Program-made: the position numbers and the translations under genes
Notes under the pieces: model-generated
What the model saw: the letters and a program-made list of their open reading frames with translations, nothing else
What the model was told of the DNA's origin: nothing
The model's database searches: none
Part shown: positions 34,530 through 61,225 of the stretch, in pieces
Layout of the letters: the number at the start of each line of letters is the position of its first letter
How positions within the stretch are numbered: position 1 is the first letter of the stretch
Source of the DNA: Chinchilla lanigera
Lineage: Eukaryota; Chordata; Mammalia; Rodentia; Chinchillidae
DNA: 64,000 nucleotides
Direction: 5' to 3'
Assembly: GCF_000276665.1 (NCBI RefSeq)
Contig: NW_004955416.1
Location: 6,784,796 to 6,848,795, forward strand

Positions 34530-34936
34530 TTAGGGAGTGTTTTCATTTTTTAGGACTATTATAACAAATTACCAGAAATTTAGAGGTCAATTGTAGTAAT
34601 TTATATTAAGATAATACAAATTTATTCTTACAGTTTTGGTAGCCAAAAGTCCAAAATCAGTCTCTCTGGGCTAACATGAGGTGTCAGAAGGACCAATTCC
34701 TTCAGAAGCTCTTGAGGAGCATCCATTTCCTTGCCTTTCTAGCTTTCGCAGGTTGCCTGCAGCCCATTATTCATGTCCCACTTCCACTTTCACTCTTCTG
34801 TAGTCAAATTGTGGTTACATTTAGGATATATCCAAATAATCTAGGAAAATCTCCACATCTCTGAATTTTTAACTGAATCACATTTGCAAAATCCCTCTGG
34901 CTTTATGAGGTAGTATCACAGTTTTCAGGAATTATA
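34530..34936. repeat. MLT/MER-type repeat, left arm (host of ERV-A)
   Basis: 'aacaaattaccagaaattta', 'ttcttacagttttggtagcc', 'aagtccaaaatcagtctctc', 'atccatttccttgcctttct', then 'cacagttttcaggaattatag'. The right arm is 41,918-41,968 ('ggaattaaaacaaagatatc', 'ccatgattcagcctacctca'). The parallel copy at 956-1434 reads continuously through the corresponding point, which proves ERV-A inserted here. Confidence 0.65.
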
Positions 34937-35106
34937 GGGGGAACTCACTTTCCAGTGCCCCTCTGTCCCTCTCAGACAGAAGCTTTCTTTCTCTCAATAA
35001 ATTCTTCCTACTCTTAACTTCCATTATTCCTAGAAGTCATTCCTCGATTTTAGAGAACGTGAACTCAGCATTTCAGACATCTAGCAGGTTGGGAATTTTA
35101 TTCCCC
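34937..35106 (+). repeat. ERV-A 5' R-U5 (U3 absent)
   Basis: Starts 'gggggaactcactttcc', includes 'ttctctcaataaattcttcc' (poly(A) signal) and U5 'gagaacgtgaactcagcatt', ending near 'cccctatatca'. The R part aligns with 41,824-41,902 and the U5 part with 61,010-61,107. The start corresponds to a point about 26 bases after an AATAAA-like TATA element in the 3' copy, i.e. to a plausible cap site. Confidence 0.85.
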
Positions 35107-35135
35107 TATATCAAATTTGGAGGTCTTTCATCAAG
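35107..35135 (+). promoter_or_regulatory. ERV-A primer-binding-site-like sequence
   Basis: Immediately after U5 comes 'aatttggaggtctttcatca'. A TTTGG.GG start after the LTR is typical of proline-tRNA-primed gammaretroviral elements, but the match is degenerate. The 60,505 LTR is followed by the related 'tatttgggggttctgatatc'. Confidence 0.4.
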
Positions 35136-37245
35136 ATAATTGGATGGAGGTAAGAGTTTCCTTTTGTTTCATAGATCCCAGGTTGTGACTCGCTTAGGTA
35201 ATCAATTTTTATGATGTTATGTCTTTGCCCATTGCTTACAATTACTTATAATTGGTCATGCTTTGTCTCTTACATAATTTTATTAAAAGGGTGACAAATT
35301 TAAGTTGAAAACATGGGAAGGTTATAAGGTCATAATGCTTTTTTAATGTGACATTTTATTCCAGTTTTGCACATGTTGCATTTGGATTTAGTTGCTGAAC
35401 TTACCTGTGTTCCTTGTTTTACCTGTTTGACTTATTTGACTGCTATGGTTCGTTATCTTAGACAGCAGTGCTAGGGAAACAATATTAGAGCATTCCCTAA
35501 AGGGCTTTGATATAAAATGCTGTAAAATGGTCCTTTTAAAATAAAATCTAGCTCATACTTAGAAAAATATACAAACCTATATAAGAAAACACAGGACTCC
35601 TTCCATCAGTTAAAGGATGCTAGTTAAAGGCTGTTCTTAAGACTTGGAGGACAGGTTTCACTGAGACAGACTGGCTCTAACCCTTCTCTACATTCTAGAG
35701 GAAATATCAAGCCTGTTCTGCTTCAGTTTCCTTTCTGGTCTGATCTTCTCCTAGTGAGGAAGCAATCTTAGCTCTTGAGATTCCCCATTCTCATCTACCC
35801 ATTGTCTTTATAACTCACTGTGAGCATGAGAGGGGAAGACTTCCTTTCTCTGGCCTTCTAATATTTTCCTGCCATGTTGTACTTTTCTTTTTTGGAGGCA
35901 TGTAAGAGTAGAGAAAAAGAACTCCAAATTGTTCCAGGCTTTTCCTCTTATCCAACAACTAAGTGAAGCCCATAGAAAGCATTTGCTAACACCAAAGACA
36001 GAGAGAAGTCATCTTAGATGAGGGACACACACCTCATCTCTGAGTCAGATAAGACATAGAAATTTTGCCTGTCCAGGAGAATACACATGAAAGCCACATC
36101 CCAGCTTAGTGTTCTGGGCAGGTCTCTCTTGAGCGACTGAACCTGGAACACAGTAGAAAGAACCAACTTCTGGGTGAAGCCAGAAAGAGCTATTTCCAAG
36201 GCACCACACTTACAGGACCAAAACACATTTAGCCTAAGGGAGGATCTCCAAACTTTCCTCTTCCCTCCTAGGTCTAATTATAATTTATATGCATAGGAGA
36301 AAATACTTTGATAATAAATTGTGGACTTTATAAACCTTTACTGTAAACTTCTAAAGTGCTAGGTAATGATCTTGCTCAGGCTTTCATCTATTCTTGTAGA
36401 ACTTTGAGAAACAGTGGTTGCTCTGCCAGCTAATTAAATGCTCTTAGAGCAGCTGCCACTGTTAAAGCAGAAGACAGGCTTCCCCAGCATCTTTTTGGTG
36501 AATCCCCATTAAAGACAATGGTCAATGGAATGTTGACCAAACAGACAGCTGGATTCCTTTCTGGAGACAGACCTGTGGTTCCACAGGCCAATAGAAACTG
36601 AGAACAACTGAGGGGTCATGGCCAGGGCTGCTCTCTGACAAATACCCAAAGGTATCTCAGTGGGAACTGCCTCCAGCCACAAAAAAATCTCCACTTATCT
36701 ATCATATTTTCTCTCTTTACTATTAAATCAGAAACCCCAATTTTTCTCCAACTTGTTGGGGGTTAACCTTAAAACCACCTGTCCTTCTACTACCCCTCCC
36801 TCCAGAAATAAGGCTGAGGCAACTTGAAACAACTATTTACCTTTCATGGAATAAAACAATTATCAAAGGAACAATTTACATTTGTAGCTTACATATGCTA
36901 AGAGTTAAGAACAGCCTTTTCCCTCCTGTGTGCATAAAAGACTAATAAATGTGCCTTTACTAACATCTGAAATGTGAGTGCTAGATAATAAATATAAGCT
37001 TAATATGTGAATTTCAAAGATATAAAAATTTAAATAAAGTATAGCTTGTCCTGCTGCTAGGAAAGGTTGCCTGGGTGCTTTGATGGATAACACAGGTGTC
37101 TTGGAGACTTCTTTGTCCTAGGGCCCAGGTCAGAATTTCCCCAGTCAATTGTTGCTTCTTCCAGATAGAGCTGATCTTCCAGATAGATAGAAATCTGATT
37201 TTCAGGGTTTGAAGCAGAGTTCAATGACTACCATCCTTGCTGGTT
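35136..37245 (+). pseudogene. ERV-A leader and degraded gag region
   Basis: By position between primer site and nucleocapsid this should hold the leader and matrix/capsid part of gag. A splice-donor-like 'ggaggtaagag' is at about 35,146. No long frame survives and I cannot recognise matrix or capsid motifs. Confidence 0.35.
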
Positions 37246-37740
37246 ACCACTGCCAAAAGCCAGGCCACCGTAAGAGGGACTGCCTTAAGAGGTCTTCCAC
37301 ACCCATGCCCTAACTCCAAAGGTGGTCACTGGAAGCCAGACTGCAATCTGAGTTGAAGGTCCCTAAGTTCAAACTCATCTTCTTAGCTGGTCTAGCAAGA
37401 CTAAAGGGCCCCAGGGCACTCTGCCTCCTCCCTCTGGCCAGACTGTCATCTCCACCTGTCATCTCCAGGGAGGAGCCCTGAGTAATCATGACTATAGAGG
37501 GAAAAGAAACCAACCTATTGCTTGACATTGGCAAGTCTCTTTGTCCTTCTTTCCAATCCTGGCCTTCCTTCCAGCTATCATACTTCAATAAAAAGGAGCC
37601 ACCAGATAAAAGGCAACTCACTTAAGCTATAACTGGGATGACTTTCTTTTCACCCATTCTTTTAGTTATGTCTAAAGCCCAGCTCCTATCCTGGGAAGAG
37701 ATATTTTACTCTGTCTCAATACTACACTATATATACCCAG
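37246..37740 (+). pseudogene. ERV-A gag nucleocapsid end and protease remnant
   Basis: 37,247-37,292 translates to a zinc-knuckle end, GHRKRDC, preceded by a Cys but with one of the expected cysteines lost. The protease follows: 37,485-37,535 reads IEGKETNLLLDIGK, in which the catalytic Asp-Thr-Gly is Asp-Ile-Gly. A later part encodes LSWEEIF-like residues at the usual protease end. Frameshifts interrupt it. Role in an intact virus: RNA packaging and Gag-Pol maturation. Confidence 0.65.
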
Positions 37741-37865
37741 GTTGGCAACTAGTCAAAATGATGCTTAGACTGGTTTTACAAATACAATATATACTGTTGA
37801 CTCTGTGCAATAACTTGAGTTTTTCACTGGTCAAAATGTGTTAATTGTTATAGTCTGCTTCTCAT
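37741..37865 (+). other. AT-rich non-coding block shared with ERV-B
   Basis: 'ttggcaactagtcaaaatga' here and 'ttgccagctagtcaaaatga' at 50,712 start a stretch of about 115-120 bases that aligns imperfectly but continuously. In both elements it follows protease. It has no open frame. Confidence 0.65.
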
Positions 37866-37979
37866 AAGTCATAGCTAAAACTGGAGGAACTTAAAACAAG
37901 AAGTCAGTCTACACCAACAGAGAGTTCTAAAAGGGGCCAACGGGTTGCAATTGCTATTTCAGTCCCTTAAGAACAGTTT

Positions 37980-38600
37980 CTAGACTTACTCACAGCGTAG
38001 TTTCACTCATATGACAAAGAATAAAGAAGTTCAATATTTATTAGTATGCATAGATACCTTCACACTGGGTTGAAGCCTTTCCTTGTAGAACAGAAAAGGC
38101 ATAAGAGGTTGCAAAAATTTTAGTCTCATAAATCATCCCCAGATTTGGACCTCCTAAGAGCTTACAGAGTGATAATGGGACGTCTTTTAAATCAAGTTAC
38201 ACAGACTGTCTCTCAGGCACTGGGCATTCTCTATCACCTCCATTGTGCATGGAGTTCACAATCATCAGAAAAAGTAGAAAGGGTAAATAAGACCCTAAAG
38301 AGACATCTTTGTAAACTGGCTTAGATACTCACCTGTAGTGGCCTCACTTACTATCTTTAGCTCTCATTAAAATAAGAAATACACCTCATTCAAGGTCTCA
38401 GTCCATTTGAAATGCTTTATGGATGCCCTTTTCTAACAATTTTCTTTTCAATACAGAAACAGATGCCTTACTAGCTAAACTCCAATAGACTCTTTAACAG
38501 CTACTGGAAGCTCAGCCTAAAGAAAAAGGAAATCCCTTAATACTGCTGTCTAGGTAGCAAGCCTGGACTCCTGGATACACCACACCAAAATCAAGTCCTG
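37980..38600 (+). pseudogene. ERV-A integrase remnant
   Basis: 'tatttattagtatgcataga' encodes YLLVCID-type residues near the first catalytic Asp. 38,150-38,185 reads RSLQSDNGTSF, the conserved block with the second catalytic Asp. 38,270-38,460 gives family-like residues around a degraded third acidic region. Stops occur in every frame. The reverse transcriptase and RNase H that should precede it are deleted. Confidence 0.75.
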
Positions 38601-38713
38601 GGAACCAGAGACTGTAGTAGACTGTGAGCAACTATCATCAGAATACTCCTGTGAATGCATAGAAGTCTTCAGACTCTTGTTCAAGAAAAAAAGTCTTCAG
38701 ATAAGTAATCTAA

Positions 38714-38830
38714 GATGTTACTCTTAGTCCTTATACTAATCACTTTACCACTTAAGGGAGAATGTAATTCCTTTCTAAGTGGTGTTATAGTTTGGGAGAT
38801 ATTTTTACAAGGGGGAACAATATAATAGAG
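38714..38830 (+). pseudogene. ERV-A env signal-peptide region
   Basis: ATG at 38,714 opens MLLLVLILITLPLKGECN, a hydrophobic leader with a plausible cleavage region, at the expected distance after integrase. It runs about 35 codons before a stop at 38,826. The rest of the surface subunit is interrupted by a ~0.9-kb insertion. Confidence 0.6.
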
Positions 38831-38879
38831 GACACATATTTTATAAAATTATTTGTAATAGTCACCCAAAGAATGCAAG

Positions 38880-39800
38880 AAATCTGTCCACACACTAAGA
38901 CCAAGGAAACTAGCCGAGGGCCTGGATCCCACAGAAATGTCCTGCATGAGTCCAGCTGAAGGTCTAGAGCTCATAACAATGCTTCCCACAAATGCAACTG
39001 GAGGCCTAGAGCCCATAACAGTATCTCATGCAGGCCTGTTTCACAGATCTGCACTGCGAAGGCCCAAAGGTCAGTGGTGGAATCTAGGAAATCCGTGCCA
39101 ACAGGCTGAGGGATCTACACTGCATCCAGGAAGCGATGCTCAAAGTAAGAACCGGAGCTCCCCGAAAGGTACCACAGCCACCCTCAGCAACAGTGAGGTC
39201 CCGAGCTCCTCCAATGATCAGCATGGCCGAGTTCACATCAGGAAAGCCAATGCAATAAGCTCCTTCAAGACACTGGCAATGCACCATCTTCCCCTCCGGA
39301 GCCAGGAAGCGATGTTCAAAGTGAGGACCAGAGCTCCTCCAAAATGAACCGAAGCTATTCTCAGTGCCAACAAGGCCTCAATCTCCTTGGAGGATGAAAA
39401 CAGTCAAGTTCATCAGGAAAGCCAGCATGAGGAGTTCCTCCAAAACAACCAATAGCTCCTTACAGCTTCTACCAGGCTCCCAACAGTCTCTCTCAGCTAC
39501 CAACAGTCTCTCTTAGCTCCTAACAGCCTCCTTCTCCTTCTCCAGTTCTGCCTCTTATGCTGCTGGAAACAATTCCCAGGTGGGCCTCCCATACCCAGCA
39601 CCACGCTTACTCAGCTCAGCTGGGGGTTATAAGTTGACCACCAGTTGTCAATTCACTATAGGTAGGCACAAGAATATGCAGTCATTAGAATAAACATCTG
39701 CTGGATATGTGGCCTCCTCTCCTTCTCCAGTACATCTGGCCTTCCTTGCTGGGTATTCCTACTCCAAGTATTGAAATAAACTACAAGACTATATTAATAA
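38880..39800. repeat. insertion inside ERV-A env, internally repeated
   Basis: GC-richer than its surroundings. 'ccaggaagcgatg' recurs at 39,126 and 39,302 with similar flanks (spacing 176). Shorter repeats occur around 'ctagagctcataacaat' and 'caacagtctctct'. It ends with 'gaataaacatctgctgg'- and 'attgaaataaactac'-type poly(A) signals, so an LTR of another family is possible. The open frame at 38,937-39,347 has no recognisable domain. Confidence 0.45.
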
Positions 39801-40018
39801 GTTACAAAAGCGTTCAAAGGTTCATAGTTTAGCCCACCATTACAAGGTAGTTGAGTGGCCTATAACCTATACTCTTAATAATCCTGGACATAATAGAATT
39901 TTTTTCTAACAACGCCAATGTAGCCTCTTTAAAGGCTATAATAGAACCCCTATTAAATAAAAGAAAATGTCCTATCCTGAGGGCCAACAACCATAGACAT
40001 CAAGATGGCCATTTTCAG

Positions 40019-40116
40019 GGGCTGGGGATTTAGCTCAGTGGCAAAGCGCCTGCCTGGCAAGCACAAGGTCGTGAGTTCGGTTCCCGGTACTGGAGAAAAA
40101 CAACAACAACAAAAAA
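40019..40116 (+). repeat. ID-type SINE in ERV-A env, perfect 17-bp target duplication
   Basis: 'gggctggggatttagctcag', 'gcgcctgcctggcaagcac', 'aggtcgtgagttcggttccc' and a CAA-rich tail. AAGATGGCCATTTTCAG flanks it at 40,002-40,018 and 40,117-40,133. The A and B boxes are intact, so this is a young copy. Confidence 0.95.
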
Positions 40117-40133
40117 AAGATGGCCATTTTCAG

Positions 40134-40752
40134 ATAGGGGATGATTATCTATTGTTAACCCCCACTACAGGACATTTTATCAGAAATTCCCCCATATGTT
40201 GTGAACAGAAAAATCACTCCTATTCTCATTGGCCTAACTCTACTAAATACCTGGGATGGACACCCCCTGAACAATGTATGCACACAACAACTTTACAGGC
40301 TGAAGATCAGTTTGCAACAATCATGTTTCATTTCCCTAAAGTTAGATGGGAAGCCCCCAAAGGCACTCATTGGTACTGTGGAACCAATTTGTGGCACTGG
40401 CTACCCACTGGATAGGAAGATGCACACTGGAATTTGCATGATTACAAGGTCGAAGTGTCAAAAATATTGACAACCCTACAAACCTGCCCCACCTATGGCA
40501 CTGATGGCCTAGAAGTGAGTTTCACTAGTATGATGATTCAGCTTCTATCCTTATCCCTTCCCTAGGGTTAGAGGATGTCATGCAAAATATCAAGGCCTTA
40601 ACTAACTATACTCAACAGTCCTTAAATGACACTGAGGCTGGTCTCTCTCTCCTGAATGAGAAAGTAAAATTAATGAGGCAAGCTGCCCTCCAAAATCAGA
40701 GGGCATCAGTCATTCTAACAGCAGCACAGGGGGTACTTGTGCAATTATAAAA
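40134..40752 (+). pseudogene. ERV-A env surface C-terminus and transmembrane ectodomain remnant
   Basis: The frame ending at 40,415 reads THWYCGTNLWHWLPTG, a conserved gammaretroviral env block ahead of the subunit cleavage site. 40,590-40,750 shows a Leu-rich heptad region (NEKVKLMRQAALQNQ) followed by the region that in this family carries the conserved transmembrane-subunit motif; it ends at a stop and is then cut by a SINE. Stops prevent any continuous envelope protein. Confidence 0.75.
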
Positions 40753-40754
40753 GC

Positions 40755-40912
40755 TGAATGCCAGGTGTGGTGGTGCATGCCTGTAATCCCAGCACTTGGG
40801 AGGCTAAGGCAGGAGGATTATTGTGAGTTCAAAGCCAGCCTGGGCTACAAAGTGAGATCATAGTGAGACCCTGTCTCAAAAAGGGTTGTGTGTGTCTCAA
40901 AAAAAAGTTGTG
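40755..40912 (+). repeat. B1-type SINE in ERV-A env
   Basis: 'gccaggtgtggtggtgcatg', 'cccagcacttgggaggctaa', 'agccagcctgggctacaaag', 'gaccctgtctcaaaaaggg'. It separates the heptad region of env from a later hydrophobic stretch. Confidence 0.85.
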
Positions 40913-41319
40913 CATACATTCCTCATCCTTCTGCTAGTATCTCAATAGCTGTTTGAGATATTAGATAACAGGTTAATGACATGTCAGAATCTGAAATTCC
41001 ATAGACTTTCTCCTTATCCTCTTTATGGAAAGTTATTATTGGCTCCTGTTGGTAGAAAACCCTGTTAGCTATATTCATAATTATCTGTTGATTTTATTAT
41101 TTGGCTCATGCATACTTAACTGTTTCTGTGGCCTTGTCTTAAAGCTCTATATCTAGCCAAAACAAAAACACCTGGGATCTATCAAGGGCCTTTAGATAGA
41201 TCCTCTGTGGAGTATCTCTGCTGATCACAACTACGACCCTCTTCAGCTGGATGTAGCCAGATCGGTCTTTGACGCTTGCTCCCTCATGGCGGTTAGGGGT
41301 ACTTCTTCAGAGGGGGTAA
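40913..41319 (+). pseudogene. ERV-A env membrane anchor and 3' untranslated part
   Basis: 41,085-41,150 encodes a hydrophobic run (LLILLFGSCILNCFCGL), consistent with the transmembrane anchor. A purine-rich tract 'cagagggggtaa' immediately precedes the 3' U3 and fits a polypurine tract. Confidence 0.55.
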
Positions 41320-41902
41320 TGCTATAGATAGCTAAGTTAGGTAGAAATATTGCAGGCCATCAGACAGGGCTGAGCCCTCAAGAGGTCTATGTAGACGACA
41401 ACTATAGCTGGAGTCATATTCACTGAAGGCCAGGCCTCAATAAAAAGAAGAACTACTACTCATGCATATACTTACCTACGTATGAAGAGCAGTGATTGAT
41501 ATTTTAAGTAGGCATCAATTACCTTGGGATGGAGGACCAAATCTCCTTAACCTACTCCTTCCATGAAAGTCTTTGTCTGTTCCATGTGTACTTGCTATGT
41601 GCCTTGTTTCCCCATTTGATCTCTATTTAATCAATATTACCCCAGTGACTATACTTGTATACTTACTGGTTGACCATAGTTTTGTCCCACCTCACACCCA
41701 TCCTATGATTTGTCATTGGATCAATATTACCTAAGTGACTAACCCTGTAATCTTATTAATTCCCACCTTAAGCCTGCCTTACCTCATGGCTTTACTCAAT
41801 AAACACCTTGAGGAGCGGGGCTGATGGGAAACCCACTTTCTGGCTCCCCTTCTGTCCCTATCAGACAGAAGATTTCTTTCTCTCAATAAATTCTTCCTAC
41901 TT
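41320..41902 (+). repeat. ERV-A 3' U3-R (U5 absent) followed by poly(A)
   Basis: Starts TGCTATAGATAGCTAAG after the purine tract and parallels 60,505 onward. A TATA-like AATAAA is at 41,799, R begins about 41,824, AATAAA at 41,885, and sequence changes to 15 A at 41,903. U5 as in the 5' copy is missing. Confidence 0.85.
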
Positions 41903-42222
41903 AAAAAAAAAAAAAAAGGAATTAAAACAAAGATATCTTGAGGGCCATGATTCAGCCTACCTCAGGGGCTAACTAATAATATCCATTCAAGAGGTCAAGG
42001 GAAGAGGAATGACATCTTTTCAGGGATAACCAAATATCTGCTCCTATATTAGAAGAAAACAGTAATTCCAGATCTTTATTGGTAACATATCATTTGTGAC
42101 ATCTCACAGTTTACCTAGATTTATCAATGTGTCAAAACATGAAAACAAGAAAACTTAACAAGAGGGACAGTTTGTGCAGGAGGTTCAAACGCCTCTCCCT
42201 TCCTCTCAAGAGTACCTGAACA

Positions 42223-53114: not shown

Positions 53115-53207
53115 AACGGGGGCCAGGGAGATAGCTCAGTGGCACAGCACCTGCCTGGCAAGCATAAGGTCCTGAGTTCAATTCCCAGTATCACACACAC
53201 ACACACA
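53115..53207 (+). repeat. ID-type SINE between ERV-B RNase H and integrase
   Basis: 'gggccagggagatagctcag', 'cacctgcctggcaagcataa', 'gagttcaattcccagtatc' and a CA-rich tail. Integrase coding sequence resumes immediately after. Confidence 0.88.
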
Positions 53208-60504: not shown

Positions 60505-61117
60505 AATATTATAGACAGCTAAGCTAGGCAGAAATATTATAGGCTGTCAGATAAGGCTAGGCCCTCCAGAGTGGCAGGACCAAGGTGAAACACATCTCAA
60601 CAGTGGCTGGAGACATATCTGTTGGAGACCAGGCCTCAAGATAAAGAAGAAATGACCAGGTCTGTATACATCCTTCAAGTACAAACACCAGACCTAATGA
60701 AGCCTAGATAGACCTCACTCACCCTGGTGGATGACTAAGGCCTTCAGACCCATCATTTCCTAGAAAAAGTCTTTGTTCTTTCCATGCACCCTTGTTATAT
60801 GACTTGTTTCCCCATTAGATCACTATTACCTAAGCAACAATATCCTTATTGGTTAATCATAGCTGTTACCCACATCATACTCATGTGAGTATGGCTCTGT
60901 AAAACTTCCCTGTAAAGAGGGGTCCATGGCAACCCATCGGGCCTCTCCTGCCTCGCAGGAAATTATATATATATATTTTTTTTTTCTCTCAATAAGTATC
61001 TTCTTACTCTTAACCTCTGTTGTTCCTAGAATTCATTCTTCAATTTTTAAAGAACACGAACTCAGAGTATCAGATATCTAATGGGTTGGGAATTATATTT
61101 CTCTTATATCATATTTG
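60505..61117 (+). repeat. ERV-A-family LTR (U3-R-U5) with primer-site remnant
   Basis: 'ttatagacagctaagctagg' matches the ERV-A U3 start, 'tttctctcaataagtatctt' is R, and 'gaacacgaactcagagtatc' is U5. After 'ctcttatatca' comes 'tatttgggggttctgatatc', resembling the ERV-A primer site. It lies inside the MaLR LTR. Confidence 0.8.
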
Positions 61118-61225
61118 GGGGTTCTGATATCTCTGTAACAAGAACATGATGAAATAAATATGTTTTCTTTATAAGTTACCCAGTATGTGACATTCTGTTA
61201 TCATAGCATAAAATGGATGATGATA

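Follow-up and report, generated by a model that had tools for sequence, protein, structure and literature searches.

Copies of a retroviral mRNA with the marks of L1 retroposition in the genome of Chinchilla lanigera

Structure of the element at the locus

Within a window of 64,000 nucleotides (nt) of the Chinchilla lanigera genome (contig NW_004955416.1, positions 6,784,796 to 6,848,795; all coordinates below are positions in this window), the stretch from 34927 to 41924 is occupied by an element of an endogenous retrovirus (ERV), which the initial annotation called ERV-A and took for an L1-mobilized copy of a retroviral mRNA. On the forward strand it reads, in order, host sequence, AGGAATTA, TA, R-U5-leader, an internal region, U3-R, 15 A's, GGAATTA, and host sequence again. 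At the left end (...TTTTC-AGGAATTA-TA-GGGGGAACTCAC...), R starts at 34937/34938, right behind AGGAATTA (34927 to 34934) and a TA (34935 to 34936) that, read from both ends, has no duplicate at the right. No match to U3 was found upstream, and the 5' long terminal repeat (LTR) of this copy (locus L001) consists of R-U5 alone, with R, the start of the mRNA, at 34937 to 35012 (AATAAA signal at 34996 to 35001; first G possibly cap derived) and U5 at 35013 to 35113, ending in TATATCA, where LTR-only copies depart from the match. The 3' LTR is U3-R alone: U3 extends from about 41320 to 41825 with a TATA-like AATAAA from 41798, and R (41826 to 41902) carries a poly(A) signal AATAAA at 41885 to 41890, followed by 12 bases, the 15-A tail (41903 to 41917), and GGAATTA up to 41924, with no U5 behind the tail. 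AGGAATTA recurs at 41917 to 41924, sharing its first A with the tail, and constitutes an 8-bp target duplication, a length inside the 5- to 15-bp range that goes with the definition of HERV-W processed pseudogenes (PMC5016936).

The limits of U3, R, and U5 were placed with blastn by using a related complete LTR on the same strand (60505 to 61117), the alignment that the initial annotation had proposed: U3 of the right copy matches 60510 to 60827 at 66%, the left U5, with a portion of R included, matches 60979 to 61122 at 81%, and the left R matches the right one (41826 to 41901) at 88% over 76 positions, with the signal positions serving as further landmarks for the 3' R. The R start, the end at R plus tail, the duplicated target, and the lack of an outer U3 and U5 were thereby all verified at the locus, including the claims of that annotation that the left end begins at R, that the right end stops 12 bases after AATAAA in 15 A's, and that AGGAATTA stands at both edges. 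It had further put R about 26 bases past the TATA-like AATAAA; the downstream placement holds, and the distance in the right copy is 28 nt from the first A. Every element of the R-U5-internal-U3-R-poly(A) layout, which it had likened to that of HERV-W processed copies, is present. A pair of full LTRs with a 4- to 6-bp duplication, as expected of an integrase-type insertion, was not seen at the window copy, in agreement with its view that the viral integrase was not the maker.

The host site was examined by joining the two flanks (with two bases, 41925 and 41926, omitted) and aligning them, with gaps, to a related host repeat without the insertion on the forward strand (956 to 1434). The score was 93, a value reached by none of 300 shuffles (mean, 50; standard deviation, 8.8; maximum, 81), and that on the reverse strand was 49. 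The alignment crosses the junction, although no more than about 29 aligned columns lie to the right of it; the continuity of the host repeat across the insertion, as previously asserted, is supported, if modestly. A blastn search with 956 to 1434 against the rest of the window returned no match at E < 1e-3.

Ends of the sampled relatives

Relatives were sought in the 2.37-Gb assembly (442 contigs) with the R-U5, leader, and U3-R pieces of the window copy as queries. The samples described below are the nearest relatives by best match rather than a census, and their proportions are to be read accordingly. Among the best 40 of 4,110 R-U5 candidates, 14 have U3 directly upstream and 26, the window copy counted, lack it; in these 26, host sequence starts at or beside the same R base. 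With the leader piece (best 40 of 406), 35 matches, again counting the window copy, are without U3 and 5 possess it (L090, L092, L093, L095, and L098), all of the latter being among the 11 weakest of the 40; L091 to L100 were judged on about 240 bases upstream of R. The two sets overlap in nine copies, leaving 52 distinct R-start copies and 19 U3-bearing ones (71 in total), and in 44 of the 52 the alignment begins at one of the first three positions of R (offset 0, 1, or 2). Complete LTRs edged by exact 4-bp repeats were recognized by eye in L038 (CAGG) and L029 (CTGC), and with a mismatch in L004 (TAAC/GAAC); on this inspection, they are integrase-type insertions within the same family as the window copy.

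At the 3' side, the window copy was set aside and 135 bases were read for each of the remaining 39 among the best 40 of 2,458 U3-R matches, a copy being scored as tailed if the next 30 bases contained a run of five A's or an A fraction of >0.6. This rule gave 31 tailed copies, 5 continuing into U5, and 3 undecided; after a check by eye, there were 31, 6, and 2 unclear, respectively, with L111 being read as U5 with a SINE-like (short interspersed nuclear element) insert. Slices taken 4.5 to 9.5 kb downstream of 20 R-start loci contained a 3' end in 7 cases, with U5 behind none of them. The survey of the source genome that the initial annotation had called for thus finds R-start and tailed copies to be common among the nearest relatives, with U3-bearing copies (19/71) also present.

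Those U3-bearing copies, among them the three with 4-bp edge repeats, speak for a provirus of the usual integrase-made kind whose outer U3 and U5 were deleted afterward, as they establish proviral or solo LTRs in the same family. Deletion, however, would neither add 15 A's nor leave duplicated flanks beyond the deleted ends, nor would it sever dozens of unrelated loci at one and the same base of R; we regard this origin as very improbable.

The duplicated flanks were assessed in 13 copies with tail-like 3' ends that could be read at both ends (the window copy, L003, L006, L007, L010, L011, L016, L017, L023, L035, L040, L013 with its 3' end L136, and L077 with its 3' end L112), by scoring the 24 bases before R against the bases behind the tail. 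The 13 scores, that of the window copy being 8, sum to 114, and none of 100,000 permutations reached this sum, a result that was unchanged (0/100,000) after dropping L023, a microsatellite case; the 156 cross-locus pairs have a mean score of 4.8 (standard deviation, 1.6). Clear single matches are those of L016 (ATCTTATATTC), L006, L003, L035, and L077.

The flanks also carry the degenerate form of the L1 endonuclease site, YY/AA[AG]. Across the 52 R-start copies, such nicks number 26 at 11 to 15 nt upstream of R, 8 at 6 to 10 nt, 3 at 16 to 20 nt, and 1 to 9 in every 5-nt bin beyond. A nick falls at 6 to 20 nt in 32 of the copies, whereas the four control windows yield 14, 10, 13, and 7 (P = 4e-7, calculated from position counts). 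It is as this enrichment over the 52 copies that a TT/AAAA-like insertion motif shows, the site of the window copy (TTTTC/AGGAA) fitting it poorly. At R itself, a G immediately precedes GG(G)C in 33 of 52 R-start copies versus 2 of 19 U3-bearing ones (P = 9.8e-5), and in 29 of 44 versus 2 of 14 (P = 0.0014) in a strictly anchored set; T (11) and C (6) predominate in the U3-bearing copies. A G derived from the cap would account for the enrichment; host bases would explain the A found at this position in other copies (e.g., L016).

These observations bear on a second possibility, in which the virus's own enzyme reverse transcribed the RNA and a chromosomal break took up the cDNA without L1. Such a cDNA would have similarly RNA-like ends, but viral reverse transcription normally restores both LTRs, and capture at a break predicts neither target duplications nor an endonuclease-like motif 11 to 15 nt away, which makes this route just as hard to credit as secondary deletion.

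Spliced templates, virus class, and relationships

The leader of the window copy (35114 to 36186), which is common to other R-start copies, is unspliced and contains a donor-like GAG|GTAAGAG at 35149/35150 that is found in unspliced copies at 30 loci. Two copies, L010 and L023, have a leader that ends at this donor and is joined to sequence matching the window from 38546 onward. When a 200-base piece of the L023 junction was used as a query, 10 of the best 40 of 429 matches spanned the junction (L023 included; one from base 64), and the remaining 30 halted there (8 on the leader side and 22 on the other), their edges lying mostly at 99 to 101. In four further copies (L007, L011, L025, and L037), the leader continues from this donor into an exon that opens with ACATGGG and is gag-like by position only; a Pfam search with a piece of it gave no match, and the putative gag-side splicing is read from these single copies. 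L006, L016, and L035 have the form R-U5-leader-U3-R-tail over about 650 to 740 bases; they lack most of the interior, differ in their join points, and have RNA-like ends, reflecting either internal deletion or alternative splicing prior to retroposition. That different processed forms of one RNA occur, each at its own site, would be difficult to account for if the templates had not been RNA.

An open piece of the relative L053 matched the Pfam TLV_coat family (PF00429; E = 3.9e-12) and, among solved structures, was closest to Syncytin-2 (E = 5.9e-14), with Syncytin-1 at 1.8e-5. The class I assignment made in the initial annotation is therefore supported for the family, which, judged from this relative, would have a gamma-type Env; it does not extend to the window copy itself, as no retroviral Pfam match was obtained with 10 pieces of that copy or with 7 other pieces of relatives. 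The first open reading frame of L1 (ORF1; PF02994) is abundant in the genome: 14,429 candidates were recovered, and 150 of 150 scored above the cutoff, many being stop free within the domain.

Median differences in R-U5 amount to 0.185 within the R-start copies, 0.189 within the U3-bearing copies, 0.188 between the two sorts, and 0.288 (29%) between R-start copies and the related LTR at 60505 to 61117. A poorly resolved R-U5 tree has both sorts mixed, with 14 changes compared with 17.0 when shuffled (as few in 16 of 500 shuffles, for R-start copies); its use as a guide to source copies was dropped for want of resolution. Its terminal branches show a median length of 0.092 per column, which at rodent rates of 2 to 4e-9 per site and year would correspond, very roughly, to an age in the low tens of millions of years. 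That a single copy arose once and was then spread by segmental duplication, all the family counts being one event, is the least credible proposal, favored by nothing more direct than the slightly greater than chance clustering of R-start copies on that tree and opposed by flanks and duplications that vary among the 13 two-ended copies, by internal structures that vary from unspliced to spliced and internally deleted, and by an R-U5 divergence as large in R-start as in U3-bearing copies.

Other features of the window

The broken internal region (36187 to 41319, forward strand) was compared in 250-bp tiles with the loci of relatives; matches were obtained from about 37190 on, and 36187 to 37186 was unmatched in the loci compared. 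An unoriented extra segment (38780 to 39649), missing in L023 and L040 and with similar sequence elsewhere in L041, L048, and L057, contains an internal 42-nt direct repeat (39126 and 39302) and is probably another repeat inserted later. Two short repeats are also later insertions: 40018 to 40101 (unoriented), which falls in a gap between matches of L023, is contained in 23 loci, and is presumably an ID-type SINE, and 40760 to 40860 (reverse strand), recognized by comparison with relatives, which we take to be a B1-type SINE. Outside the element, a primer-binding-site-like TTTGGGGG lies behind the end of the related LTR at 60505 to 61117, where a 4-bp duplication was not seen by eye. A tRNA-like match at 53125 to 53196 (RF00005, 34.5 bits) was not called by ARAGORN; we assume that it is probably a tRNA-derived SINE of the ID type.

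Discussion

The window copy has RNA-shaped ends, a tail, and a duplicated target; many independent relatives, some of them spliced, end in the same way. The flank pairs, the motif peak, the 5' G, the recurrent splice junction, the abundance of L1 ORF1, and the RNA-like ends together point to L1 retroposition of both unspliced and spliced viral mRNA. We are therefore nearly certain that 34927 to 41924 is a processed copy of an unspliced retroviral mRNA placed by L1 and that the same route made most of the sampled close relatives holding internal sequence. The RNA template would have come from another locus, at which polymerase II would start at R of a source provirus and the transcript would be cut and tailed at the signal at the end of R. 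L1, the machine that we infer, would contribute its proteins in trans; a host strand would be nicked, the A tail would prime, reverse transcription would run to the cap, and the target would be duplicated upon insertion.

Several observations weigh against this reading. The nick site of the window copy itself, TTTTC/AGGAA, fits TT/AAAA poorly, and the TA between the left AGGAATTA and R, unduplicated at the right, is without explanation. The motif YY/AA[AG] was picked after examples had been seen. Only the best-scoring 40 of each candidate set (4,110 for R-U5, 406 for the leader, and 2,458 for U3-R) were examined. The flank scores of L017, L007, L011, and L040, at 5 to 6 versus a null mean of 4.8, are singly unremarkable, and the tails of L023 (GA rich), L040 (four A's), and L136 (no run of >4) are unclean. 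L114 runs into neither a tail nor U5, and L137 stops short. At 13 of the 20 R-start loci no end was found in the first 3' slice, since some copies are 10 to 11 kb long (L077 with L112 and L013 with L136). Finally, L027 has an R start without U3 (971 of the oriented locus) but no tail and a 3' end 49 nt into U5, perhaps because a longer transcript was primed internally.

The mechanism of L1 retroposition as such is already known. Ordinary processed pseudogenes and L1-mobilized SINEs are products of the same machine and bear the same signature; they differ from the present copies in that the template here is a terminally redundant retroviral mRNA, which results in a copy with no 5' promoter and an internal U3 near its 3' end. 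The SINEs of this genome look, we presume, like those of a rodent, in contrast to the primate setting of HERV-W.

For HERV-W, published work counts 135 processed, 65 proviral, and 13 undefined copies among 213 elements (PMC5016936) and singles it out as the only HERV group that L1 specifically mobilizes, with the determinants being unclear (PMC5537654). Its processed pseudogenes resemble the present copies in the R-U5 5' end, the U3-R 3' end, the poly(A) tail, and the target duplication, as well as in the TT/AAAA-like site (here as an enrichment across copies, with a poor fit at the window copy), the complete-LTR copies alongside, and the large processed share (PMC5016936 and PMC5537654), although the shares of the two families are not directly comparable, those given here deriving from best-match samples. 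The present family appears to be set apart by its Env, to judge from the L053 piece, which is nearest to Syncytin-2 among solved structures. Its recurrent spliced-mRNA copies beside unspliced ones may be a further difference. Another parallel is the ARTenvV Env mRNA retrocopy of antelopes, made by L1 from a spliced ERV transcript, with a duplication and a short A run; as described in the relevant part of that report (PMC9604959), one co-opted gene was copied once, whereas many copies of a multicopy family are involved here. That text also refers to surveys in which retroduplicated copies of ERVs were reported from mammals. A search of open-license papers brought up no comparable ERV family in rodents, and the portion of a study of dog ERVs available to us (PMC3093408) contains none.

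The framing of the initial annotation, that of one odd locus, understates the finding. What is added, within the relatives sampled, is a second family in which the L1 route dominates. On balance, it is probable that this family is, independently of HERV-W, a second one among mammalian class I ERVs whose copies with internal sequence were mostly made by L1 acting in trans, and not by the viral integrase, with unspliced, gag-side spliced, and env-side spliced mRNAs each giving rise to retrocopies of their own. The R-start copies have lost their 5' promoter, and the 5' and 3' "LTRs" of such copies are unusable as a provirus clock. The habit has so far been described mainly for one human virus family, HERV-W, and a second family with hundreds of candidates (406 by the leader) would be an independent data point, by which features common to both RNAs and missing from ERVs that L1 ignores become testable. 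If this is true, certain ERV transcripts would be hijacked by L1 repeatedly, and a search for their common determinant would become possible.

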